DNA of 27,166 bases from a virus. The DNA lies in the IMG/VR virus record IMGVR_UViG_3300025685_000019, positions 1 to 27,166 of that record, one strand, 5' to 3'. The position numbers and the translations under genes were made by a program. This document shows, in pieces, positions 2,637-24,782 of the stretch; the stretch's first letter is position 1, and each line of letters starts with the position of its first letter. The notes below the pieces were generated by a model. It was not told the DNA's origin. It was given only the letters and a program-made list of their open reading frames with translations, and ran no database searches.

Positions 2637-2647
2637 CTCAAAAGCCC

Positions 2648-2676
2648 TTGACTTTGCTTTGTTTATTGTGTATAAT
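2648..2676 (+). promoter_or_regulatory. Sigma70-type promoter for the CobT-like gene
   Basis: TTGACT at 2648-2653, a 17-base spacer and a perfect TATAAT at 2671-2676. The transcript would start near 2683, about 25 bases before ATG 2709. The core AGCCCTTGACTTT (2643-2655) recurs exactly at the next promoter (4972-4984). Confidence 0.85.
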
Positions 2677-2708
2677 GGTAACATAGAATAAAAAAAGAGA
2701 GAAAAGTT

Positions 2709-4973
2709 ATGAGAGACTTATCTACCATTGCAAAACTACTTGCTGAAGAAGATATTTTTGTACAAAACAAAAATCAATCTACAGCATCGTTTGATGTTAA
2801 AAATCGTGTACTTTCACTTCCTATTTGGAAAGAAATGTCTAAACCAATTCAAGAGTTAATGACTATCCACGAAGTAGGTCATGCCCTAGAAACACCACTA
2901 GAACAATTAGAACAAGCGGAAAAAGAAAATATAGAATTTTCAGTATTAAATGTTTTAGAAGATGTTCGTATTGAAAAATCTGTTCAAAAGAAATATCCCG
3001 GCTCTGTTCGTATTTTCAAAAAAGGTTATCAAGAACTGATTTCCATGAATTTCTTTGGAACTAAAGAACTTAATATTTCTGAACTTAATCTTATTGATAG
3101 AATCAATCTGCATTATAAACATCATTCAGATATTCCTTTTTCTGTTGATGAAAATGTTTGGGTACAAAAAGCAAACCAAACTGTGACTCCTGATGATGTT
3201 TTAACCCTTGCAAAAGAAATCATTGATTTTGTTGGAAACAACCCAGAAAGTCAGTCTAAATCACCCTCTCAAGACGATACAGAGGGTGCTAAAGACATGG
3301 TAGAGGACGACACCAACTCACAAGATGATGAAAATCAAAGTGATGATTTTGATACATCAAACAGTCCTTCAGCAGAAAATGAAACAAAAACTCTTGATAA
3401 CAATCAGAAAGATTCTAATTCTGATTCAACAAAATCAGATGATACTGATGGTGTTAAATCAGAGGAAAAACAAACAGTTGCTCAAAATCAAGCTAAAGGT
3501 AGTGACAATTCTGATACTAAAGAAATAATTTCTGTTACAGATATTGCGTCAAGAGGCTCAGTTAAAAACTTATTGTCTGATGCTACTAATGATATTTCTT
3601 ATGCTTCTATTCCTAAGTTGATAATGAAAAATGTGATTGTTCCTAACAAAGAAATATTAGAAATTTTCAATGAACAGTATACTTGTCAAATGGAAAAACG
3701 TGATACAAAGTATTATGATTCTACACGATGTGAACTTGAAAAACTTAAAAAGGAAAGTAAAAAAACTGTTGCATATATGGTCAAAGAATTTGAAATGAAA
3801 AAGTCAGCTGATCTTTATTCGCGTTCATCTACTTCAAAAACGGGTTCGCTTGATATGGGTAAGTTACACACTTACAAATATAATGATGATCTGTTTGCAA
3901 AGATTACTACTTTGCCTGGCGAAACTAATCATGGTTTAGTTCTATTCCTAGATTGGTCTGGTTCAATGGCAAGTAATCTTATTGGTACTTTAAATCAGTT
4001 ATTCAATATTATTTGGTTTTGCAATCGCACACAAATTCCTTTTGAAGTTTTTGCTTTCAGTAACAATTCATTACTTCAAAATGATGAACGCCCAAACCAA
4101 AAATTTAAATCTGAAGATTTGTCTATCCCAGAGTTAAAATTGCTTCAATTCTTTTCAAATAAAATGTCTTTATCTGACCAGAATACTATGATGCATAATC
4201 TTTATATGATGGCTTTTCGTTGGAGTTGGATGACAACTGAAAATGATCGTAGCATACTAAGATATGAGTGTCCAATGAAAATGGAATTAAACAGTACTCC
4301 ATTAAATGATACAATAATTGCAGCAATGGATTTAGTTCCTGCATTTCAAAAAAAGTCTGGTGTTCAGAAAACCCATATTATTTTTTTGACTGATGGTGCA
4401 AGTAATGAGATAAGGAGCAAATTTACTATCAAAACAGATACAACTGGCAAAGATTTTGAAACTGTAGATAGAGATTTTTGTCCGTACTATAGTAGCTACA
4501 GAAATGCCGTCAATGCAAATCAAGATGTTTATTTTGATCCTACAACCAACACAAGAGTAAATTCTAAAGATATTACTGGCCGAAGTGTCCAAACTAAATG
4601 TCTTCTAAAACTTCTCAAAAAAAGATGCCCAGAGGCCTCTATTGTAAATTTCTTCGTTGCTGGAGAGGGGCGCAATGGTTCAGTAAGAACAAAAATTTTC
4701 CAAGATATCATTGGATATGAATGGGAGCACGAAGATTTAATAAAAAATTACAGAAAATCTTTAAGAAAAGATAATTTTGTTTCGATCGAAGGCGGGCAAG
4801 GATTCGATACTATTTACATTTTGCCCGGCATGAATGACTTAGATATGGACTCAGAGTTGGAAGTCGAAGTAGGTGCTTCAAAATCAGAACTTAAAAAAGC
4901 ATTCAAGCAAATGTCTAACAAGAAAATGCTGAACCGCCCATTGCTAAATAATTTCATAAAAATGGTCGCTTAG
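2709..4973 (+). CDS. CobT-like / MoxR-associated von Willebrand A domain protein
   Basis: This 754 aa protein has three parts. The N-terminal domain (1-175) contains HEVGH at 54-58 followed by LEDVRIE at 83-89, a pattern like zinc metallopeptidases and CobT relatives. Residues about 180-275 are a Ser/Asp/Glu-rich linker. The C-terminal half carries a vWA domain with a complete MIDAS: DWSGS at 415-419, and FLTDG at 559-563 as the later Asp motif. CobT and related vWA proteins work with a MoxR/CobS AAA+ ATPase in metal insertion or protein-complex remodelling. The next gene is exactly such an ATPase, so the two very likely act together. No CobN-like large chelatase subunit is present, so a cobalamin role is doubtful. 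ATG 2709 follows an AGAGAGAAAAG purine tract. Confidence 0.85.
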   Translation: MRDLSTIAKLLAEEDIFVQNKNQSTASFDVKNRVLSLPIWKEMSKPIQELMTIHEVGHALETPLEQLEQAEKENIEFSVLNVLEDVRIEKSVQKKYPGSVRIFKKGYQELISMNFFGTKELNISELNLIDRINLHYKHHSDIPFSVDENVWVQKANQTVTPDDVLTLAKEIIDFVGNNPESQSKSPSQDDTEGAKDMVEDDTNSQDDENQSDDFDTSNSPSAENETKTLDNNQKDSNSDSTKSDDTDGVKSEEKQTVAQNQAKGSDNSDTKEIISVTDIASRGSVKNLLSDATNDISYASIPKLIMKNVIVPNKEILEIFNEQYTCQMEKRDTKYYDSTRCELEKLKKESKKTVAYMVKEFEMKKSADLYSRSSTSKTGSLDMGKLHTYKYNDDLFAKITTLPGETNHGLVLFLDWSGSMASNLIGTLNQLFNIIWFCNRTQIPFEVFAFSNNSLLQNDERPNQKFKSEDLSIPELKLLQFFSNKMSLSDQNTMMHNLYMMAFRWSWMTTENDRSILRYECPMKMELNSTPLNDTIIAAMDLVPAFQKKSGVQKTHIIFLTDGASNEIRSKFTIKTDTTGKDFETVDRDFCPYYSSYRNAVNANQDVYFDPTTNTRVNSKDITGRSVQTKCLLKLLKKRCPEASIVNFFVAGEGRNGSVRTKIFQDIIGYEWEHEDLIKNYRKSLRKDNFVSIEGGQGFDTIYILPGMNDLDMDSELEVEVGASKSELKKAFKQMSNKKMLNRPLLNNFIKMVA

Positions 4974-4976
4974 CCC

Positions 4977-5005
4977 TTGACTTTATGGTTTAGTTGTGTT
5001 ATTAT
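4977..5005 (+). promoter_or_regulatory. Sigma70-type promoter for the CobS-like gene
   Basis: TTGACT at 4977-4982, a 17-base spacer and TATTAT at 5000-5005, followed by AGCTAGG. The -35 region begins inside the stop codon region of the vWA gene. The leader of about 45 bases contains a short GATTGA direct repeat (5017-5032). Confidence 0.85.
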
Positions 5006-5058
5006 AGCTAGGTAAGATTGAGATTGAGATTTTAAATTAATGAGAGAGAATATATATT

Positions 5059-6216
5059 ATGATTACATTTACTCCACAAAAACAAAAGTTTATTGATTCT
5101 GCAATAGAAATGTTTGGTTCGGGTTCTACTTTGACCAATCAACAAGTTGTTGATGCTTCTAAAACTGCTGGTGTTCCAAAAGCTGGTTGGTTTAAAAAGA
5201 AATATAAAGTTGGCTATAACCAATTTAAGTTACCATTAGAAGCTGCTCCTGCTCCTGCATCTGTTTCAGAAACTTCTGATGAGAATACTACTGTAAGTTT
5301 GATTGCAACTAATATGGAAAAACAAAATTTAATTCCTGCTCCCTTTGAAGGTTTTGTGCCTTGGGGTCATTTTAAAACATTAAAACAAATTACTAAATCT
5401 GGTTTATTTTATCCTGCCTTTGTTACAGGATTATCTGGTAATGGTAAAACTTTAATGATTGAACAAATTCATTCTGATATGAATAAAGAACTTATTCGTG
5501 TCAATATTACAATCGAAACTGATGAAGATGATTTACTTGGTGGTTTCAGACTAGTGAATGGTGAAACAAAGTTTGTGCCAGGCCCTGTAATCGAAGCAAT
5601 GGAACGCGGTTGTACTTTACTTCTTGACGAATGTGATCTGGGTTCTAACAAATTAATGTGTCTGCAACCTGTCCTTGAAGGTAAAGGTGTTTATCTCAAA
5701 AAAGTCAATAAGTGGGTCAAGCCTAAAGATGGTTTTAATGTGATGGCAACTGCTAACACTAAAGGTAAAGGTTCAGAAGATGGACGCTTTATTGGAACTA
5801 ATATTCTGAATGAAGCATTTCTTGAAAGATTTGCAATCACTATTGAACAACCATACGCTTCTGCTGCAACAGAAAAGAAAATCATTGTTGGTTCTATGAA
5901 AAAGTATGGCAATGTTGATGAAAACTTTGCAGACAATCTAGTAACTTGGGCAGAAGTAATTCGCAAAACTTTCTATGATGGTGGTGTTGATGAACTTATC
6001 TCAACTCGCCGTTTAGATCACATTGTAAAGGCTTATGCAATCTTTAAAGACAAGTCTAAATCAATCGAACTATGCGTTTCCAGATTTGATGAAGATACTA
6101 AAGATTCATTCTTAGACCTTTATTCTAAAATTGATGCTGGTATAAATCCTTTAGAAGATGAACAATCAGAAAAAATTGTCGAAGATGAATTAGTTAAATC
6201 AGAACGTCATTTTTAA
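5059..6216 (+). CDS. MoxR/CobS-like AAA+ ATPase
   Basis: This is a 385 aa AAA+ ATPase. Walker A is GLSGNGKT at 124-131. Walker B is LLLDECD at 187-193, with D190-E191 as the catalytic pair. A sensor-1-like MATANT follows at about 230. The first 60 residues look like a small separate helix-turn domain, followed by an Ala/Pro-rich link. T4-like marine phages commonly carry a gene annotated cobS, and this matches that type. Its immediate upstream neighbour is a MIDAS-containing vWA protein, the usual partner of MoxR ATPases. I therefore infer a two-component remodelling or chelatase-like machine acting on an unknown host or phage target. The ATG follows a GAGAGAA tract and has its own promoter. 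Confidence 0.87.
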   Translation: MITFTPQKQKFIDSAIEMFGSGSTLTNQQVVDASKTAGVPKAGWFKKKYKVGYNQFKLPLEAAPAPASVSETSDENTTVSLIATNMEKQNLIPAPFEGFVPWGHFKTLKQITKSGLFYPAFVTGLSGNGKTLMIEQIHSDMNKELIRVNITIETDEDDLLGGFRLVNGETKFVPGPVIEAMERGCTLLLDECDLGSNKLMCLQPVLEGKGVYLKKVNKWVKPKDGFNVMATANTKGKGSEDGRFIGTNILNEAFLERFAITIEQPYASAATEKKIIVGSMKKYGNVDENFADNLVTWAEVIRKTFYDGGVDELISTRRLDHIVKAYAIFKDKSKSIELCVSRFDEDTKDSFLDLYSKIDAGINPLEDEQSEKIVEDELVKSERHF

Positions 6217-7642: not shown

Positions 7643-7652
7643 AAAAAATCAG

Positions 7653-7678
7653 AAAAGGGGTTGACAATAACCCCTTTT
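7653..7678 (+). terminator. Intrinsic terminator after hsp20, overlapping the next promoter
   Basis: AAAAGGGGTT (7653-7662) pairs perfectly with AACCCCTTTT (7669-7678) around the loop GACAAT, and six T follow the C run. This is a classic GC-core, T-tract terminator. Its ascending arm and loop supply the TTGACA -35 box of the following promoter. Confidence 0.82.
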
Positions 7679-7690
7679 TTGTGTTATTAT
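7661..7690 (+). promoter_or_regulatory. Sigma70-type promoter embedded in the hsp20 terminator
   Basis: A consensus TTGACA at 7661-7666 lies in the terminator hairpin; TATTAT at 7685-7690 follows an 18-base spacer and is followed by AGATGG. It would drive the 2OG oxygenase, uvsX and downstream replication genes. The terminator and promoter share about 18 bases. Confidence 0.8.
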
Positions 7691-10775: not shown

Positions 10776-11711
10776 ATGGAAAAATATTTATGGGTGGAAC
10801 AATATCGCCCAACAAAAATCAGCGACTGTATTCTACCAGATGATTTAAAAGACACATTTTCTGAGTTCGTTAATAATAAACATATACCAAATCTAATTTT
10901 ATCAGGTGGGCCTGGCGTAGGTAAAACTACTGTCGCTAAGGCTATGCTTGATGAAATTGGTTCAACATATATGATGATTAATGGTTCAGAAGAATCTGGT
11001 ATTGATGTCCTGAGAACTAAAATTAAGAACTTTGCATCTACTGTATCCCTCGAAGGTGGACGCAAGTATATCATCTTAGATGAGGCAGACTATCTTAACG
11101 CACAATCTACTCAACCAGCTCTGCGTGGTTTCATGGAAGAATTTCATAAGAACTGTGGATTTATTCTTACTTGTAATTATAAGAACCGATTGATACCACC
11201 ATTACATTCTCGTTGTAGTGTTATTGATTTTATAATTCCAAATGACCAGAAACCTAAACTTGCAAGAGATTTCTTTGATAGAGCAAAGGATATTCTGAAT
11301 AAAGAAAATGTAGAGTTTGAACCTAAACCTGTTGCAGAACTTATGAACAAGTTCTTCCCAGACTGGCGTAGAGTATTAAATGAATTACAAAGGTATTCTT
11401 CATCAGGTAAAATTGATGCAGGAGTGTTGGTAAATTTATCTGAATCTAATATCAACGATCTAATGATATCTCTGAAAAATAAAGAGTTTACTAATGTTCG
11501 TAAATGGATTGTACAAAATTTAGACAATGATCCTGTGCGTGTATATAGACGTATTTACGATAGTTTATATTCTAATTTGGACGCTAGTACTATTCCTCAT
11601 GCTGTTGTTATCATTGCTGATTATCAATACAAGGCTGCATTTGTATCTGACCAAGAGATTAATCTGTTGGCATGCATGACAGAATTGATGGGTCAGGTGA
11701 AGTTTAAATGA
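10776..11711 (+). CDS. 44: gp44 clamp loader large subunit (AAA+ ATPase)
   Basis: This 311 aa protein matches T4 gp44 (319 aa) and RFC small subunits. It has a WVEQYRP RFC box near the start, Walker A GGPGVGKT at 44-51 and Walker B LDEAD at 101-105. The trans-acting SRC arginine finger is at 145-147 in PPLHSRC. The C-terminal collar domain follows. Four gp44 and one gp62 load the gp45 ring onto primed DNA using ATP. Its stop overlaps the start of the MT-A70 methyltransferase (ATGA at 11708-11711). In T4 the next gene is 62 directly; here another gene intervenes. Confidence 0.95.
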   Translation: MEKYLWVEQYRPTKISDCILPDDLKDTFSEFVNNKHIPNLILSGGPGVGKTTVAKAMLDEIGSTYMMINGSEESGIDVLRTKIKNFASTVSLEGGRKYIILDEADYLNAQSTQPALRGFMEEFHKNCGFILTCNYKNRLIPPLHSRCSVIDFIIPNDQKPKLARDFFDRAKDILNKENVEFEPKPVAELMNKFFPDWRRVLNELQRYSSSGKIDAGVLVNLSESNINDLMISLKNKEFTNVRKWIVQNLDNDPVRVYRRIYDSLYSNLDASTIPHAVVIIADYQYKAAFVSDQEINLLACMTELMGQVKFK

Positions 11712-12247
11712 TATTATTACCAAATAAAAAATATAATATAATCTATGCCGATCCGCCTTGGCACTTTAAATCAAGAAGTGAAAAAGGAGATGGTAGAAAT
11801 GCTACTCAGCATTATGATTGTATGTCACTAAAAGATATATGCAATATGCCTGTTAAAGAAATAGCAGATAAAGATTGTGTATTATTAATGTGGGTTACTG
11901 ATCCATTATTAGAAAAAGCATTTAAAGTTATTGACGCTTGGGGATTCACTTATAAGACAGTAGGATTTACTTGGGCAAAATCAAACAAAACTAATATGGG
12001 AATGTTTACAGGATTAGGATATTGGACTAGATGTAATCCAGAAATGTGTTTACTTGCAACAAAAGGTAAACCTAAAAGAGTTAGTAAATCTGTAGCACAA
12101 TTAGTTATAGATCAGCGTAGAGAACATAGTAGAAAACCAGATAGAATCAGAAATGATATAATTGAATTATGTGGTGATCTACCTAGAATAGAATTATTTG
12201 CTAGACAAACATTTGATGGTTGGGATGCATGGGGTAATGAAGTATAA
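11708..12247 (+). CDS. MT-A70-family N6-adenine methyltransferase, inserted between 44 and 62
   Basis: This 179 aa protein has the MT-A70 motif DPPW at 15-18 very near the N-terminus. LLMWVTDPLLEKAFKVID and GFTWAKSN follow, and the C-terminal half has ECLL-like CLLATKGKP and REHSRKPD, typical of this family. Such enzymes methylate adenine N6 in DNA or, in eukaryotes, in RNA; phage members are small DNA methyltransferases. The gene is tightly fitted, with ATGA overlap with 44 upstream and TAATG overlap with 62 downstream, so it is co-translated with the clamp loader. It uses TTA for most leucines, more than its neighbours, which hints at later acquisition. Substrate site not known. Confidence 0.88.
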   Translation: MILLPNKKYNIIYADPPWHFKSRSEKGDGRNATQHYDCMSLKDICNMPVKEIADKDCVLLMWVTDPLLEKAFKVIDAWGFTYKTVGFTWAKSNKTNMGMFTGLGYWTRCNPEMCLLATKGKPKRVSKSVAQLVIDQRREHSRKPDRIRNDIIELCGDLPRIELFARQTFDGWDAWGNEV

Positions 12248-13035: not shown

Positions 13036-14034
13036 TTGGAACAATTCAAGTCATTTATTACAGAAGAAGAAAAACAGCAATCATATCGTTTTGTCATTAT
13101 CTATAATGACCCAGAAAATATGACTGATGATTCTAAAGCAGAAGCTGAAGAAATGGCAATTGATATGATAAAGTTTGGTAATGAACTTGGACTGAAAGGT
13201 TTTACATGTAGAATTGAAGATGCATACATATCTCACAAAAATGATAAAATGTATATACATGACATTGACGATAAAGAATTTTTGATAGATGAAAATACTT
13301 TAATATTCAACAGGTCTAAATCAAATGATTTTGCAAACTGGCAAGGTCTGATGTACGAACTAGAAAAATCAGGTGCTAATGTAATAAATTCACTTGATGT
13401 TCATATACTCTGTGCTGATAAATGGAAAACATACATCAATCTAAAAAAAGTTGGTGTTAAACAACCCAACTCTCTTTTGGTAAATAGTCCAGATAAAGTA
13501 GGTGATGTGTTTAAAAGACTGAAAACAAAATTTCCAATTATTCTAAAAACACAACTAGGTACAGGTGGTATCGGAGTTGTAAAAATTGAAAATGAAACAC
13601 AACTACTTGCAACCTCACAACTTATTCATAGGTTGGGTCAAGAAAGAGGCATGTTAATACAAGAGTTTATTGAACTTGATTATGATATCAGAGTAATTGT
13701 TATTGCTGGTAAAATACATGGTGCAATGAAACGACCAACTCCAAAAGGGGATTTTAGAAGCAATGTGCATCAGGGGTCTGAACCAGAAAAAATTGAATTA
13801 ACTAAACTTGAAGAAGATGAAATATATAAAACAATGAAGGCACTAACACCTAGAGGTGGTTGGGTAGGTGTTGATTTAATACCAGCAAAAGATAGAGAAA
13901 AAGAACGACCCTATTGCCTAGAAGTTAATTCTCAGCCAGGCACAGTAGGATACAACACAATAATAAAAGGGAACATTCTTGAGGATGTTCTTAAAACATA
14001 TATGAATAGAGATAATTGGAAAAAGTATGAATAA
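13036..14034 (+). CDS. ATP-grasp ligase, RimK-like
   Basis: The 332 aa product has a complete ATP-grasp core: Gly-rich loop KTQLGTGGIGVV at 171-182, QEFIELDYDIRV at 209-220, FRSNVHQG near 240-247, then GVDLI (D280) and the metal-binding LEVNSQPG (E296, N298). RimK-type enzymes add amino acids, classically glutamate, to protein C-termini; the phage substrate is unknown. The only start that keeps the N-terminal strand FVIIYNDPE is TTG 13036, three bases after the regA stop; the next ATG (13120) would remove it. The start region MEQFKSFITEE resembles T4 capsid-targeting peptides. The gene occupies the place where T4 has gene 43, which is not in the window. Confidence 0.85.
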   Translation: MEQFKSFITEEEKQQSYRFVIIYNDPENMTDDSKAEAEEMAIDMIKFGNELGLKGFTCRIEDAYISHKNDKMYIHDIDDKEFLIDENTLIFNRSKSNDFANWQGLMYELEKSGANVINSLDVHILCADKWKTYINLKKVGVKQPNSLLVNSPDKVGDVFKRLKTKFPIILKTQLGTGGIGVVKIENETQLLATSQLIHRLGQERGMLIQEFIELDYDIRVIVIAGKIHGAMKRPTPKGDFRSNVHQGSEPEKIELTKLEEDEIYKTMKALTPRGGWVGVDLIPAKDREKERPYCLEVNSQPGTVGYNTIIKGNILEDVLKTYMNRDNWKKYE

Positions 14035-14305: not shown

Positions 14306-15532
14306 ATGAATGAAAAAATGCGAGGAAATAATTACTTGAAATATTTTAGATATACACTCGATGATCTTAAAAAGTCATCAGACAGAAAACTATTTGATTA
14401 CATATCATTTTTCGCAGGCGGTGGTGGTTCATCTGCAGGCTATAAACTTGCTGGTGGTGATTGTAAATTTGTCAATGAATTTCAACAAGTCGCAGTAGAT
14501 ACTTATCTTGCAAATTGGCCAGAAACTCCACATCATATTTGTGGTGATATTAAAGCTGTTTCTGGTCAACAAATAATGGAAATGACAGGTATTAAAAAAT
14601 ACGAATTAGACATACTTGATGGTTCGCCTCCTTGTCCACCATTCTCTATGTCTGGTACTAAGAAAAAAGGTTGGGGCAAAGAAAAGACAGCCTATGGAAT
14701 GAAACAGAAAAACATAGAAGATTTGACTTGGGAACAGATTCGTATTGCTGGTGAAATGATGCCTAAAGTAATTGTATGTGAGAATGTAAAAGGTCTTACA
14801 ATGGAATATGCATCAGAGCATCTTGCACGAATGGTGAATGATTTTGAAGAGCTAGGTTATACTACAGTTTATAAAGTATTAAAAGGACATGAGCAAGGAG
14901 TTCCACAAAAAAGAGAAAGAGTATTTATTGTATCAGTTCGTAATGATGTACTTGATGCAATCAATATGCCATTCATGTGTGTTGCAAGTGAAGTGTTTCC
15001 AAACCCAGAAAAAGAGTTTGCCTCTATTGCTGATGCAATAGAAGATTTACAACTGAATGATGAAAACAAACTAGAGGCACACGAACTTGTTGCAACAATG
15101 AAAAAAGGTGCAAAGTGGAAATGGTTGAAAAGACTAGAAAAAAATCCAGATAAAGTTGTATCTGTTGGAGATGATGTAGTTAGGCCGTGGTATGATAAAG
15201 TTATTGCACATAGAATCAAATGGGGTAAGACTGTTCCAGAAGCAAAACATTCGTTCTTTCAATCTAGACGAGTGCCTTGGAATCAAGCATCACACACACT
15301 TTCTGAGCAAGGACTACAAACAAGTCTTGCTGTGCATTTACACCCAGAAGAAGACAGAGTTTTTACTACTAAAGAATCTGCAAGAATAATGACTCTCCCC
15401 GATGATTATATTCTTACAGGCACACTTAATGAGAAACTTGCAAGGATTGGTCTAATGGTTGCACCAATCTGTATGAAATATCTGGCAGACAATATCTATA
15501 ATAATATATTAAAACCATATAAAGAGCTGTAA
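14306..15532 (+). CDS. C5-cytosine DNA methyltransferase
   Basis: With the start at 14306 the protein has 408 aa and all main motifs of the family. Motif I is SFFAGGGGSSAG (34-45), motif IV with the catalytic cysteine is GSPPC (C110), motif VI is ENV (159-161) and motif VIII is QKRER (201-205). TLPDDYILTG and a final SAM-pocket helix close the protein. It methylates carbon 5 of cytosine at an unknown site. The promoter puts the transcript start at about 14305, so ATG 14306 would be leaderless. TTG 14336, preceded by GAGG, would give 398 aa and is a realistic alternative start. Its own promoter suggests separate, perhaps early, expression. Confidence 0.93.
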   Translation: MNEKMRGNNYLKYFRYTLDDLKKSSDRKLFDYISFFAGGGGSSAGYKLAGGDCKFVNEFQQVAVDTYLANWPETPHHICGDIKAVSGQQIMEMTGIKKYELDILDGSPPCPPFSMSGTKKKGWGKEKTAYGMKQKNIEDLTWEQIRIAGEMMPKVIVCENVKGLTMEYASEHLARMVNDFEELGYTTVYKVLKGHEQGVPQKRERVFIVSVRNDVLDAINMPFMCVASEVFPNPEKEFASIADAIEDLQLNDENKLEAHELVATMKKGAKWKWLKRLEKNPDKVVSVGDDVVRPWYDKVIAHRIKWGKTVPEAKHSFFQSRRVPWNQASHTLSEQGLQTSLAVHLHPEEDRVFTTKESARIMTLPDDYILTGTLNEKLARIGLMVAPICMKYLADNIYNNILKPYKEL

Positions 15533-17955: not shown

Positions 17956-18373
17956 ATTATTAGACCAATTTGGTCAACCAATAGGTGGTAAGACTGAAAA
18001 AGAATTGCCGAATGCACCATTACCAAATGTCGAGCAGCTGCTGCAAGACCCAATTACAAAGAAGTTTCTTTTTCTTAATAGCAAGGAAGAGCCAGATATT
18101 ACAGCTATAGGATTGACAGACGAAACTGATTACGCGGGCGTGGTCTACAAATACGGCCAAGTTACTCTCCCTGATGAGTCTAAAATAGTTGATGGAGAAC
18201 CCTTGAGTTTACAGTTTAAGTATGATATAATAGAAAACAATGGATATCCTAAAGAAAAATTTGGAGATGATTTCTTCAAACTTATCGGAGATATTTTATT
18301 TCACATTATTATAACTCAATCAGAGGACGGCTCAATTGACGAACCAAACAATAGAACGGACAGCACTCAGTAA
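17948..18373 (+). CDS. Conserved-looking hypothetical protein upstream of gp41
   Basis: The 141 aa acidic protein has a Pro/Gly/Lys-rich N-terminus, a central beta-rich part (about 35-95) and a final helix with hydrophobic KLIGDILFHIIIT. It overlaps the upstream gene by eight bases and the helicase gene by 38 bases. It carries the promoter for gene 41 in its coding region. It does not match T4 UvsY or other replication proteins I know. The overlap arrangement suggests a role linked to helicase expression or function, but this is only context. Confidence 0.6.
   Translation: MSELLDQFGQPIGGKTEKELPNAPLPNVEQLLQDPITKKFLFLNSKEEPDITAIGLTDETDYAGVVYKYGQVTLPDESKIVDGEPLSLQFKYDIIENNGYPKEKFGDDFFKLIGDILFHIIITQSEDGSIDEPNNRTDSTQ
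18203..18231 (+). promoter_or_regulatory. Sigma70-type promoter for gene 41
   Basis: TTGAGT at 18203-18208, a 17-base spacer and TATAAT at 18226-18231, followed by AGA. It lies within the upstream hypothetical gene, about 100 bases before the gene 41 start. The CCTTGAG context resembles the CCTTGAC of the CobT and CobS promoters. Confidence 0.6.
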
Positions 18374-19733
18374 TTTAGTATCCAACGAAGAATATTGTCG
18401 AAAGGTATTACCTTTTATCAAGGCTGATTACTTTGCTGTTAAAGAAGAACGAGTTGTCTTTGAAGAAATTACAAGCTTTGTTGATAAGTATCGAAAGATG
18501 CCAACAAAGATTTCTTTGGAAATTGAAGTAGAATCCAGACAAGATTTAACTGAAACTGAACATAACAAAATTGTGGAAATTATCAAAACACTTGATTCCA
18601 CAGATGTTGATATGGATTGGTTGGTAGATACTACTGAGAAGTTCTGTAAAGACAAAGCCATCTATAATGCAATTGTTGATGGTATCTCTATTATTGATGG
18701 GAAGGATAAGAATCGTGGTGCAGATGCTATACCTAGTTTACTTACAGATGCACTTGCAGTATCTTTTGATAATGCTGTAGGACACGATTATTTTGACGAT
18801 AGTGCCTCAAGATTTGATTTCTATCACAAGGTAGAAGAACGTATACCATTTGACCTAGAGTTTTTCAACAAAATTACCAAAGGTGGATTACCACAGAAAA
18901 CATTGAATATCGCACTTGCTGGTACAGGTGTTGGTAAATCTTTGTTTATGTGTCACATGGCTGCAAACTGTTTATCACAAGGTAAGAATGTATTGTACAT
19001 TACTCTAGAAATGGCAGAAGAACGCATCGCAGAACGTATTGATGCAAATCTATTAAATGTTTCTATGGAGAATTTACAAGACTTACCAAAGACTATGTTT
19101 GAAGACAAGATTAAGAAGATACAAAAAAAGACTAATGGTCAACTTATCATTAAAGAATATCCAACTGCATCTGCTCACTCTGCACATTTTCGTGGATTGA
19201 TTAAAGAGTTATCTATCAAGAAGTCATTTAAACCAGATATGATTTTTATTGATTACTTGAATATATGTGCATCATCTAGATTGAAGGGTGCATCACAGGT
19301 TAATTCTTATACATACATTAAATCAATTGCAGAAGAACTTAGAGGTCTTGCAGTTGAAACAAATGTTCCAATCATGTCAGCAACACAAACAACAAGAAGT
19401 GGCTTCGGTTCAACAGACATTGGACTTGAAGATACATCTGAATCGTTTGGTTTACCAGCAACAGCAGATTTCATGTTTGCTCTCATCTCTAATGAAGAAC
19501 TTGATGCCCTCAATCAAATTGTAGTCAAACAACTCAAAAACAGATACAATGACCCTACTATGAATAAAAGATTCGTTTTAGGTATTGACAGAAGTAAAAT
19601 GAGATTGTATGATGTAGATAATAAAGAACAAGAGGATTTGGTAGATAGTGGTCAAGATGATGAACCAGTATTTGACAAAGGTAAATTTGGAGCTAAATTT
19701 AAAGATCACAAGTATGATGGGTTCAAGGTTTAA
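18336..19733 (+). CDS. 41: gp41 replicative DNA helicase (DnaB-like)
   Basis: The 465 aa protein matches T4 gp41. The N-terminal domain has LVSNEEYCRKVLPFIKADYF, close to T4. A linker leads to the RecA-like core with Walker A GTGVGKS at 196-202, the LEMAEERIAERIDAN helix, Walker B with D306 (FIDYLN) and QTTRSG before the C-terminal arginine-containing strand. The hexamer unwinds DNA ahead of the fork and works with primase gp61, not seen here. The start is TTG 18336, with GAGG about nine bases upstream; no ATG lies between it and the conserved N-terminal block, so TTG is very likely real. It overlaps the previous gene by 38 bases. Confidence 0.94.
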   Translation: MTNQTIERTALSNLVSNEEYCRKVLPFIKADYFAVKEERVVFEEITSFVDKYRKMPTKISLEIEVESRQDLTETEHNKIVEIIKTLDSTDVDMDWLVDTTEKFCKDKAIYNAIVDGISIIDGKDKNRGADAIPSLLTDALAVSFDNAVGHDYFDDSASRFDFYHKVEERIPFDLEFFNKITKGGLPQKTLNIALAGTGVGKSLFMCHMAANCLSQGKNVLYITLEMAEERIAERIDANLLNVSMENLQDLPKTMFEDKIKKIQKKTNGQLIIKEYPTASAHSAHFRGLIKELSIKKSFKPDMIFIDYLNICASSRLKGASQVNSYTYIKSIAEELRGLAVETNVPIMSATQTTRSGFGSTDIGLEDTSESFGLPATADFMFALISNEELDALNQIVVKQLKNRYNDPTMNKRFVLGIDRSKMRLYDVDNKEQEDLVDSGQDDEPVFDKGKFGAKFKDHKYDGFKV

Positions 19734-20909: not shown

Positions 20910-22143
20910 ACAACTAAACGAAGACAAGGGTGGTAAGAATTTACACCTAGAGCATCTAGAAGATGAAATCATTAACTATGGAGTTGATGGTGGTAGAGCT
21001 GCAATCAACTTCCTACGTTCATTAAGAGATATGCTTGCTGGTAATGCTCGGTCTTCAATCAACATGACTGTCAAGTGGGATGGTGCGCCTGCGATATTCG
21101 CTGGTATTGACCCAGAAGATGGTAAGTTTTTTGTTGCAAAAAAATCAGTATTTAATGCAACTCCAAAACTCTATAAGACAAACGCAGAGATTGATGAAGA
21201 TGGACTATCTGGTTCATTGAATAGTAAGTTCAAGATAGCACTTGCAGAGTTTTCCAAGTTAGGTATCAAAGATGTACTTCAAGGCGACTTGATGTTTACA
21301 TCAGAAGATAAAGGTAATGAAAAAATTGATGGAAAGTCTTTCATTACATTTCAACCTAACACAATCGTATATGCTGTAGACCCCACATCAGATATTGGCA
21401 AACAGATTAACAAAGCAAAGATTGGTATTGTATGGCATACAACATACACAGGTAAAGCATTACAGGATATGAAAGCATCATTTGGTGCAGATATTAAAGG
21501 ATTATCTAAACCAACATCAGTATGGATGGATGATGCAACTTACAAAGATGTATCAGGTAGTGCTACAATGAACTCAAAAGAAACAGAATCAGTAACAGCT
21601 GCACTTTCTGCAACTGGTTCTACTTTTAAAAAGATTAACTCAATGCAACTAAAGAAGTTTCTTAATCTACAGGAAAGTATGACAGGTGCAATCGCTGGTG
21701 CATCTCTTAAAACATACAATAACAGTAAGGTTCGTGCTGGAGAAAAGATTACTAATCCCAAAGCTCATGCAAAAGGATATGAAAAATGGGTTGAGATGTC
21801 AATTCAGAAACAAATTGATAAAGCAAAGAGTGTAAAAGGAAAAGATAAATACAAGAATATACAGAAAGAATATGTAAGAGAAGTTAAGAAACACACTACC
21901 AACTTAATACAAATAATCACATTTCAAAATTATTTGGTTGATGCAAAAATGCAAATTGTAAAAAAACTAAATAGTGTAAAGGGATTGACAAATACTTTTA
22001 TCAAGACCGCAAATGGATTTAAAGTAACTAACCCAGAGGGTTATGTTGCGATTGATAGGGTTAGTGGTGGTGCTGTTAAACTAGTGGACAGAATGGAGTT
22101 CTCGTTTAATAACTTTACCGCAATAAAGGCATGGGATAAATGA
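20896..22143 (+). CDS. Probable nucleotidyltransferase-fold (ligase-like) late protein
   Basis: The 415 aa protein contains KWDG at 60-63 in NMTVKWDGAPAIFAG, like the active-site K-x-D-G of ATP-dependent DNA and RNA ligases. A strand GKFFVAKKS, then DVLQGDLMF and a C-terminal AVKLVDR (motif-V-like) occur in a plausible order. The DGAPA variant and the lack of a clear E-G-x-V motif mean that ligase activity is uncertain. The N-terminus MLNFKQLNED resembles a capsid-targeting peptide with an L-x-E site. The start overlaps the previous gene by 14 bases and the stop overlaps the next start by four (ATGA). It lies in the late block, so a packaged enzyme is a reasonable inference. Confidence 0.62.
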   Translation: MLNFKQLNEDKGGKNLHLEHLEDEIINYGVDGGRAAINFLRSLRDMLAGNARSSINMTVKWDGAPAIFAGIDPEDGKFFVAKKSVFNATPKLYKTNAEIDEDGLSGSLNSKFKIALAEFSKLGIKDVLQGDLMFTSEDKGNEKIDGKSFITFQPNTIVYAVDPTSDIGKQINKAKIGIVWHTTYTGKALQDMKASFGADIKGLSKPTSVWMDDATYKDVSGSATMNSKETESVTAALSATGSTFKKINSMQLKKFLNLQESMTGAIAGASLKTYNNSKVRAGEKITNPKAHAKGYEKWVEMSIQKQIDKAKSVKGKDKYKNIQKEYVREVKKHTTNLIQIITFQNYLVDAKMQIVKKLNSVKGLTNTFIKTANGFKVTNPEGYVAIDRVSGGAVKLVDRMEFSFNNFTAIKAWDK

Positions 22144-24782
22144 AAAATTTTAGAGATATCGTAGAGGCTCGTGGTGATACAGCTGTATTCACTTTTGGTA
22201 GATTTAATCCACCAACAACAGGTCACGAAAAACTCATAGATGCACTTGCAAAACAACAATCTAAGAACGCTGGTTCTATGATGTACGTCTATCCATCACA
22301 TTCACAAAACGCTAAGAAAGATCCACTACCACACACACTAAAAATTGCATATATGAGGAAAATGTTTCCAAAGTATAAAAGCAATATAATTGTAAGCAAA
22401 TCAAGAACTGCTCTGGAAGCAGCTGTCGAGTTACATAAAAAAGGACATCGTTCTATTGTAATGGTTGTTGGTTCTGACAGAGTTACAGAGTTTAACACTC
22501 TACTCAATAAGTACAATGGTGTAGATTCTAGACATGGTTTTTATGGTTTTGACAATATCAAAGTTGTATCTGCTGGAGAACGTGACCCAGATTCAGAAGG
22601 TGTATCTGGTATGTCTGCATCTAAGATGCGAGCTGCAGCTGCTGATGGTGATTTCGATTTATTCAAAACTGGTGTTCCATCTACCTTTAAAGATTCACTA
22701 AAACTTTACAATGATGTTCGCAAGAATTTAGGTATTCGTGAAGAAAGAGATATGGGTGAGATGACAGACTTTGAAACACTCAGAGATTTGTATCTTACAG
22801 GTAAACTTTGGAATGTGGGTGACATTGTAGAAGCTCATGGTCACGAAGGTAAAGTTATTAATAAAGGCACAAACTACTTGACATTTGTATCCGAAGATGG
22901 AAAAGTACATAAGACTTGGTTACACGATATTGTAGAACGAGATTACAAAAAAGAATACGAAAATTATCAAGGAACACCAGAACAGATTGCAAGACGTTCT
23001 TCTAGAAACAAAGCTCGTAGACTTATGGGTGACAAAGCAGTAAAGGGTAAAGATGTAGGACATAAAGATAATAATCCTCTAAATAACGACCCCTCTAATT
23101 TGAAAATGGAAGACCCATCTAAAAATCGTAGAGAACCAAGATTAAGAAATGAAGTAAAACAAGATAAAGATATCAAAGATAGAGAAGGTACTCAACCAGC
23201 AAAGTATTATGCAAAAGATGCTGAAGGTGATACCATGGCTAAGTCTACTAAACAAGCTCGTGCAAGACACTTTGATAAAAAGAAATCAGGGCCAGCGCCA
23301 GGCGATGCATCTGCAACAACTAAACCATCTAAACATACCAAAAAGTTCAAACAGATGTTTGGTGAGAAACCCATAGATGAAGCAAGAGCAAAACAAGCAG
23401 TCAATTCTCGTGGTAAGGTTCAGAAACTTGTAACTGCACATGGTCTTAAATTTAAAGGTAAAGTGTATAAAGAAATAGACATGGAGTTGGTAAAAATTAA
23501 CAACTCAACTGAAATGGTTACATTTAATATTATTCATCCAAAAGAAATCTTTGGTAATGAAACTAATATATCATTTAAAGCATTAAAGCGTGGCCCATTT
23601 ATGGCAACCGATACTTCTAAAATAAATGAAGTTCTTGGTAAAGACGCAGACATGGGTGATTATATCAAAGATTTCGAGAAGTCTGATTCTCCACAGTTTA
23701 AAGGTAAGTCTAAAGAAAAACGCAAAGAAATGGCGATTGCTGCATATCTATCAAAAAATGAAGAACTAGAATTTTATCAGTTAGATGAAAAGATTGAAGG
23801 ACTTGTAACAAAAGCAAAGAAATCTGGTATGCCGTATGGTATTCTAAAAAAAGTATATGACAGAGGAATGGCTGCATACAAGACAGGACATCGGCCCGGC
23901 ACTACTGCCCAACAATGGGCATTTGCAAGAGTTAATTCTTTTGTTACCAAATCTGCTGGAACTTGGGGGAAAGCAGATGCTGACCTTGCAAAACAAGTTC
24001 GTGGTGAAGATTTTGGTATGATACCAAAGAAGAAACGAAAAGGACATGAGGTTCTAGGAACTGGTGGTGCATTTGGTGAAGAAGACAAAAGTAAAACAAA
24101 CGAAGAAAATCCTTGTTGGGATGGTTTCAAGCAAGTCGGTATGAAAACAAAAGGTGGAAAACAAGTTCCTAATTGTGTTCCAGAAGAAACAACAGCAGAA
24201 GATTGTTGTGATGATTGCATAGATGAAAAAACTTTTGCAAAAATGGCATTTGATAAAATTTACAAAATGACTCATCCAAAACACTATGACGCTCTTGTTA
24301 AAACCTATGCAAATTTGATAAGAAACGAACCACAAAAAACACATGCTCATCTTGCTGGTAGAGCAGTTAGACAGTATAATACAAAAGTAGATGCAAAAGC
24401 TTTGATGACATATGTTAACAAACTAGTTGCTATGGGTAAACTACCAAAAGAATTAAAGGCTGACTTTGATGTCAACCAATCAGAATCCCTAAATAGTTGG
24501 GGTGAAATAACAGAAACAGACAAGAATAGCGGTAAAGAACTTAATAATCCTACAAAAGGCGATGTTAAGAAATACAAAGTTTATGTTAAAAACGATAAAG
24601 GCAATGTGGTCAAAGTAGAATTTGGTGATCCAAACATGGAAATCAAACGAGATGACCCAGAAAGAAGAAAAGCATTTAGAGCTAGACATAATTGCGATCA
24701 GAAAAAAGATAAAACTACAGCAGGATATTGGTCTTGCAAGTTTTGGTCTAAAAAATCTGTAACAGATTTAATGAAAGGATAA
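22140..24782 (+). CDS. Multi-module late protein: nucleotidyltransferase, KOW-like, HNH-like and other modules
   Basis: The 880 aa protein reads as joined modules. Residues 1-9 (MKNFRDIVE) look like a capsid-targeting peptide ending in I-x-E before Ala. Residues 13-200 form a cytidylyltransferase-like domain with GRFNPPTTGH (20-29) and SASKMR (159-164). Residues 224-266 are KOW-like (GDIVEAHGHEGKVINKG). Residues 303-331 have an HNH-like GHKDNNPLNNDPSNL. Residues 415-497 are a small beta-rich module. Residues 551-623 carry GILKKVYDRGMAAYKTGHRPGT, a helical domain frequent in marine phage proteins. Residues 657-683 (NPCWDGFKQVGMKTKGG) and 810-880 (two late Cys, C852 and C866) are further modules. 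L/I-x-E sites at 414, 550 and 696 fall at module borders. Confidence 0.72.
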   Translation: MKNFRDIVEARGDTAVFTFGRFNPPTTGHEKLIDALAKQQSKNAGSMMYVYPSHSQNAKKDPLPHTLKIAYMRKMFPKYKSNIIVSKSRTALEAAVELHKKGHRSIVMVVGSDRVTEFNTLLNKYNGVDSRHGFYGFDNIKVVSAGERDPDSEGVSGMSASKMRAAAADGDFDLFKTGVPSTFKDSLKLYNDVRKNLGIREERDMGEMTDFETLRDLYLTGKLWNVGDIVEAHGHEGKVINKGTNYLTFVSEDGKVHKTWLHDIVERDYKKEYENYQGTPEQIARRSSRNKARRLMGDKAVKGKDVGHKDNNPLNNDPSNLKMEDPSKNRREPRLRNEVKQDKDIKDREGTQPAKYYAKDAEGDTMAKSTKQARARHFDKKKSGPAPGDASATTKPSKHTKKFKQMFGEKPIDEARAKQAVNSRGKVQKLVTAHGLKFKGKVYKEIDMELVKINNSTEMVTFNIIHPKEIFGNETNISFKALKRGPFMATDTSKINEVLGKDADMGDYIKDFEKSDSPQFKGKSKEKRKEMAIAAYLSKNEELEFYQLDEKIEGLVTKAKKSGMPYGILKKVYDRGMAAYKTGHRPGTTAQQWAFARVNSFVTKSAGTWGKADADLAKQVRGEDFGMIPKKKRKGHEVLGTGGAFGEEDKSKTNEENPCWDGFKQVGMKTKGGKQVPNCVPEETTAEDCCDDCIDEKTFAKMAFDKIYKMTHPKHYDALVKTYANLIRNEPQKTHAHLAGRAVRQYNTKVDAKALMTYVNKLVAMGKLPKELKADFDVNQSESLNSWGEITETDKNSGKELNNPTKGDVKKYKVYVKNDKGNVVKVEFGDPNMEIKRDDPERRKAFRARHNCDQKKDKTTAGYWSCKFWSKKSVTDLMKG

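Follow-up and report, generated by a model that had tools for sequence, protein, structure and literature searches.

Two adjacent genes and their promoters

The subject of this study is a pair of adjacent genes, encoding a CobT-like protein and a CobS-like ATPase, on the plus strand of a 27,166-base virus fragment with 33% G+C (IMG/VR record IMGVR_UViG_3300025685_000019, positions 1 to 27,166; the whole of this stretch is referred to as the window). The original prediction described them as neighbouring genes for a MIDAS vWA protein with an HEVGH...LEDVRIE pattern and a MoxR-type ATPase, and the open reading frames and motifs were located as described.

The gene of the CobT-like protein (2709..4973) encodes 754 amino acids that are divided into a zincin-like N-terminal domain, an acidic linker and a C-terminal vWA domain, and its match to phrog_459, a family labelled “peptidase” (4e-188), spans the entire protein. 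The N-terminal domain (residues 1–181, 2709..3251) contains the putative zinc-binding and catalytic motif HEVGH (residues 54–58, 2868..2882) and, on the next-but-one helix, the motif NVLEDVRIE (residues 81–89, 2949..2975; LEDVRIE, residues 83–89, 2955–2975) with E84 as candidate third metal ligand. The linker (residues 182–275, 3252..3533) is rich in Ser, Asp, and Glu and was modelled with low confidence. The vWA domain (residues 404–754, 3918..4970) carries a full MIDAS in which DWSGSM (residues 415–420, 3951..3968), TPL (residues 530–532, 4296–4304), and LTDG (residues 560–563, 4386–4397) are all conserved. The second gene (5059..6216) encodes 385 amino acids and matches phrog_249, named “porphyrin biosynthesis” (9e-113), and Pfam AAA_5 (6e-16). 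Walker A (GLSGNGKT, residues 124–131, 5428..5451), the acidic pair DE of Walker B (residues 190–191 within LLLDE, 5626..5631), the sensor-1 Asn in TANT, and the Arg finger in LERF, together with the AAA_5 match, place the protein in the MoxR/chelatase clade of AAA+ ATPases.

A sigma-70-like promoter was predicted upstream of each gene on the plus strand. The first (2643..2676) has a TTGACT −35 element (2648–2653) and a TATAAT −10 element (2671–2676) separated by 17 bases and scores 11/12, and the second (4972..5005), which overlaps the stop codon of the first gene, combines TTGACT (4977–4982) with TATTAT (5000–5005) at the same spacing and scores 10/12. Both start with the 13-mer AGCCCTTGACTTT, which includes the −35 element and has exact copies only at 2643–2655 and 4972–4984 in the window. 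Sites scoring at least 10/12 within 150 nucleotides upstream were found for the first gene in 79 out of 154 relatives (51%) and for the second in 68 out of 130 (52%), compared with 6.7% of random windows. Since 60 different 13-mers are repeated within the 27 kb, the repeat by itself means little. The claim that the two genes have promoters sharing an exact 13-mer thus stands at the level of predicted sites, but a private signal of the pair was rejected: comparable contexts are also present at 18198 and 26987, and the 13-mer rather represents the ordinary early-type promoter context of the phage.

Conservation and relatives of the pair

A total of 165 loci with the first gene, some of them copies of one contig, were collected from two scans and from a few phage regions (individual loci are cited by L numbers). 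HEXXH is present in all 162 phage-type sequences that reach this region, ExxR in every phage-type locus except for two truncated ones, and the MIDAS motif DxSGS in 165 out of 165 loci. Seven residues (H54, E55, H58, N81, E84, D85, and R87) are invariant in 74 diverse sequences. The ATPase gene is located downstream of the first gene in 133 out of the 149 loci with room for it, within 600 bases in 126 loci and within 1.8 kb in the other seven, and the phage collection holds equal numbers of records for the two genes (365 Synechococcus, 61 Cyanophage, and 24 Prochlorococcus records each).

Judged from its gene set, the 27-kb record is a genome fragment of a T4-like marine myovirus. The window includes gp46 (truncated by the window start), UvsX, gp45, gp44, a DnaB-like helicase, Hsp20, a 2-oxoglutarate (2OG)-Fe(II) oxygenase, and several DNA methyltransferases. 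Based on gp44, the Melnitz group of Methylophilales phages contains the closest isolates (69%), followed by cyanophages and the Pelagibacter phage Mosig (57–58%). The “peptidase” and CobS of the Kyanoviridae core (phrog_459 and phrog_249; p122/p123 in S-PM2, also in Pelagibacter phage HTVC008M) are full-length homologs of the two window proteins (∼32% and 54–59% identity) and share their order and their place from gp46 to gp45, whereas in the window the module is set apart from gp46 or gp45 by additional genes (methyltransferase, Hsp20, 2OG oxygenase, and UvsX). In the kyanovirus loci inspected in detail, both genes lie between gp46 and gp45 within the replication block (gp46/47 ... gp45/gp44). 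Melnitz, the closest isolate by gp44, displays the order gp46, Hsp20, gp45, gp44 but contains neither gene of the pair; a TIGR03299 phage/plasmid-like protein (18759–19718, locus L254) occupies the place. The joint absence from Melnitz, the equal record counts and the adjacency show that the pair behaves as one module, as the original prediction had it. Within a known phage group the pair forms a core module, near-universal in the cyanomyoviruses and with a fixed place.

The pair is not novel, as a cobST cluster of tailed viruses (PMC8651126) and a phage pair of a MoxR ATPase and a vWA-metallopeptidase (PMC7824862) were described previously. In the latter case, group 2.2 jumbo phages encode a MoxR AAA+ protein next to a vWA protein fused to an N-terminal metallopeptidase (ASV44729.1/ASV44728.2), for which a function in virion assembly was proposed; the architecture and the adjacent partner are as in the window, a likeness that is based on the published description. 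Atu_ph07 was considered as the source record of ASV44728/9 and dismissed as the wrong record, with no match to the family.

Related pairs are also found in other mobile elements. In the SXT/R391 integrative and conjugative elements (ICEs), the gene for a vWA protein with HEXXH and NIIEDVRIE follows ssb, bet, an exonuclease and an AAA ATPase and is flanked by DUF3150 and RadC. The recombination block of element R997 (locus L253, 6474–12401; likewise L209) reads ssb-bet-exo-AAA-x-DUF3150-x-vWA(HEXXH)-radC-primase. The ICE protein shares the HEAAH...NIIEDVRIE domain (hhalign, 96.7%) and the vWA domain with the window protein, and the nearby CobS-like AAA protein is 32% identical to the window ATPase. 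The ICEs differ in that DUF3150 and other genes separate the two and in that PF06213 matches the ICE protein but not the window protein. Rhizobium phage RHph_Y2_11 and Vibrio phage MJW carry HEXXH versions followed by DNA polymerase genes, and in Pseudomonas phage phiK7B1 the pair is located between DNA ligase and DNA polymerase III.

Cobaltochelatase subunits or metallopeptidase

The description of the viral cobST cluster considers the first gene “mistakenly annotated as a peptidase” and proposes that the viral proteins hijack host CobN (PMC8651126). According to this explanation, which is also that of most cyanophage papers, phage CobS and CobT join CobN of the host and raise the level of cobalamin for a B12-dependent ribonucleotide reductase. 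The phage ATPase is indeed a distant homolog of cellular CobS (28–29% identity) and matches the CobS equivalog model TIGR01650 with an E-value of 1e-20, the vWA partner is present, and the control genome of Synechococcus elongatus encodes a CobN-family protein. The two systems have the chelatase/MoxR-clade AAA+ protein, the vWA domain with MIDAS and a weak alignment of the ExxR helix in common. However, the TIGR01650 score of 74.2 bits is far from the family cut-off of 558.55, and a tree of 61 ATPases, including 43 alphaproteobacterial CobS, separates a kyanovirus clade (100/97) from the cellular CobS clade (100/99). The SXT, Rhizobium-phage, and Pseudomonas-phage versions and one chromosomal copy (locus L300) fall outside both clades; long branches make the deep order of this tree unsure. 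The reported matches of the window protein include none of the CobT models PF06213, PF11775, and NCBIfam CobT, and none of 34 strong alphaproteobacterial CobT proteins contains HEXXH, the place matched to it by eye being RGxADxxALxxxxHD. From the sequences, the phage pair thus lacks every tested feature that is specific to CobS or CobT.

The original prediction also held that no chelatase large subunit is present and that the pair is distinct from cobalamin synthesis. A cobN-like gene elsewhere in the phage was rejected: CobN is absent from the record, which says little for a fragment, and from five complete phages that carry the pair. Both claims hold up on this absence, on the position of the ATPase outside the CobS clade and on the lack of HEXXH in CobT. 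Furthermore, the pair is present in Pelagibacter phages, and cobalamin-independent pathways or nutrient scavenging have been suggested for Pelagibacter (PMC4303638). A study in which cyanophage cobS serves as a marker of cyanomyovirus communities describes its function as unknown (PMC9983427). A role as cobaltochelatase subunits is therefore improbable.

A similar pattern was found in cells. Among 144 alphaproteobacterial genomes, some possibly incomplete, 114 encode CobT, 61 a CobN-family protein (PF02514) and 59 both, leaving 55 out of 114 genomes that have CobT without CobN; true CobN would be rarer still because PF02514 includes Mg-chelatase H. In the control genome of Caulobacter vibrioides, CobT is present and CobN was not found. 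Even in cells, cobalt insertion is therefore not a precondition for a CobST-type pair, and CobST probably has a CobN-independent role there as well. In five loci from small low-GC genomes (L292, L294, L295, L301, and L302) a CobT-like gene without HEXXH is located beside a CobS-like gene, and an alphaproteobacterial genome with CobN contains a second, HEXXH-type CobT-like gene (locus L300, 1814–3316) whose ATPase groups with SXT.

The N-terminal 181 residues of the window protein were modelled confidently, with a predicted local distance difference test score of 91.3, with HEVGH inside helix 45–61 and E84 on helix 77–95. The best 17 matches of a VIA-align fold search include ArdC (Z = 6.5), abylysin (6.3), BlaR1, jannalysin (6.0), IrrE/PprI, ZMPSTE24, and selecase, with Wss1 (Z = 3.9) and M1 aminopeptidases further down, and Foldseek agrees with these matches (best E = 0.24). 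All of these are zinc metallopeptidases or relatives thereof. Three of them (abylysin, jannalysin, and selecase) are minigluzincins, which differ from the phage domain as small stand-alone peptidases of low sequence identity without an AAA+ partner. Sequence and profile searches of the CobT-like protein against solved structures returned no convincing match but only low-complexity chance hits, and the absence of the solved CobT chains from the fold lists carries no weight. The metal-dependent site suggested by the original prediction is thus likely: the invariant HEXXH/ExxR of the phage sequences is good support for a zinc protease and the fold matches are moderate support, with E84 probably joining H54 and H58 as metal ligand.

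The closest folds of the vWA domain are the MIDAS domain of midasin (Z = 15.6, 222 residues, root-mean-square deviation 3.4) and the vWA domain of NorD (Z = 14.9, 257 residues, root-mean-square deviation 7.8), the structure of which was determined together with NorQ, the AAA+ protein that it pairs with. NorQ-NorD and midasin resemble the phage pair in the coupling of AAA+ and MIDAS-vWA and differ from it in their cellular roles; to our knowledge, neither contains a zincin domain. MoxR-vWA couples have been reviewed as peptide-capturing chaperones (PMC7159879).

We consider it probable that the pair is a two-part, ATP-driven protein-remodelling metallopeptidase that marine T4-like phages carry as a core module and that has nothing to do with cobalt insertion, and the evidence favours this explanation over a role in B12 synthesis. 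In this model, which takes NorQ and NorD as its analogy, the ring of CobS-like AAA+ subunits would engage the vWA domain at the C-terminus of the CobT-like protein. A partner or substrate bound at the MIDAS would be shifted or opened by the hydrolysis of ATP and would be cleaved by the zincin-like domain at the N-terminus through H54-E55-x-x-H58, probably with E84. The original proposal of a two-part machine with a possible metal site that is not a cobalamin enzyme gains support from the motifs, the fold matches, the ATPase clade, the absence of CobN and the joint loss. The substrate could perhaps come from the protein complexes of DNA replication or recombination, as several unrelated elements carry the pair among genes of this kind and its promoters are of the early type.

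Several observations weigh against this explanation. The N-terminal fold matches are uniform but individually weak, and a search with 74 members reached no Pfam zincin family, with at most two of the 74 matching MPTase-PolyVal (E = 0.02). The CobT-like protein of phiK7B1 (locus L258, 2358–4442) retains the N-terminal homology but has lost HEXXH, and cutting is therefore not required everywhere. No CobS-like gene was found in the available flank of 16 out of the 149 loci with room, and the neighbouring genes say little about a substrate.

Three other explanations were considered. Proteolysis is common in phage assembly, which together with the nearby Hsp20 gene agrees with a virion-assembly chaperone that processes structural proteins, as was proposed for the jumbo-phage pair of the same architecture (PMC7824862). 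This is unlikely, since the pair belongs to the replication block and not to the structural genes in the kyanovirus loci viewed, the predicted promoters are of a sigma-70-like early type, and Melnitz produces virions without the pair and has its own prohead protease; gene place and promoter type likewise disfavour a purely structural role. The main text of a cyanophage transcriptome study assigns metabolic genes to the middle expression class and describes the timing as conserved among T4-like cyanophages, and it names neither gene of the pair (PMC5082946). A protease for counter-defence or host takeover, clearing host proteins in a use comparable to ArdC, would fit the presence of ArdC and IrrE/PprI among the best fold matches, a module that is dispensable in a close relative, and its distribution across ICEs and phages. 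However, neither protein has a PADLOC match and the pair is near-universal at a fixed place in cyanomyoviruses (PMC9983427), whereas defence genes are patchy, making this role still less likely. Finally, the zincin fold might be a structural relic and the N-terminal domain a non-cutting adaptor that brings substrates to the AAA+ ring, given that cellular CobT retains the domain without the motif and that phiK7B1 lost HEXXH. The invariance of seven residues, including both histidines and E84, is hard to explain without metal use, and we regard a relic as no more probable than chelatase subunits.

Gene setting of the window and wider meaning

Other features of the window were recorded alongside the pair. 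Three DNA methyltransferases of differing families are encoded within the 27 kb (1288–2598, N6/N4; 11708–12247, phrog_359 type; 14306–15532, C5 cytosine). An 880-amino acid protein (22140–24782) combines a cytidyltransferase-like N-terminal domain with an HNH-like stretch and other pieces, and an ATP-grasp protein (13036–14034) is weakly similar to the ribosomal protein S6 glutaminyl transferase; in Melnitz, a RimK-like ATP-grasp gene adjoins the clamp-loader genes. A strong terminator-like hairpin 3′ of Hsp20 (7650–7690) includes TTGACA and overlaps a promoter-like site scoring 11/12.

On a broader and speculative view, the CobST-like pairs of mobile elements could belong to one widespread class, ATP-driven zinc proteases serving DNA replication or recombination complexes in T4-like phages, other phages, and SXT/R391 ICEs. 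The cobaltochelatase CobST would then descend from this class, having given up the protease site on its recruitment to metal insertion. The pair itself is real, already known, and commonly misfiled as a B12 gene, and in ocean viruses cobS is one of the commonly cited “B12” auxiliary genes. Should the pair turn out to be a protease-chaperone machine, it would be an error to regard the peptidase label of its first gene as a mistake (PMC8651126), and B12-based readings of viral metagenomes would need correction.

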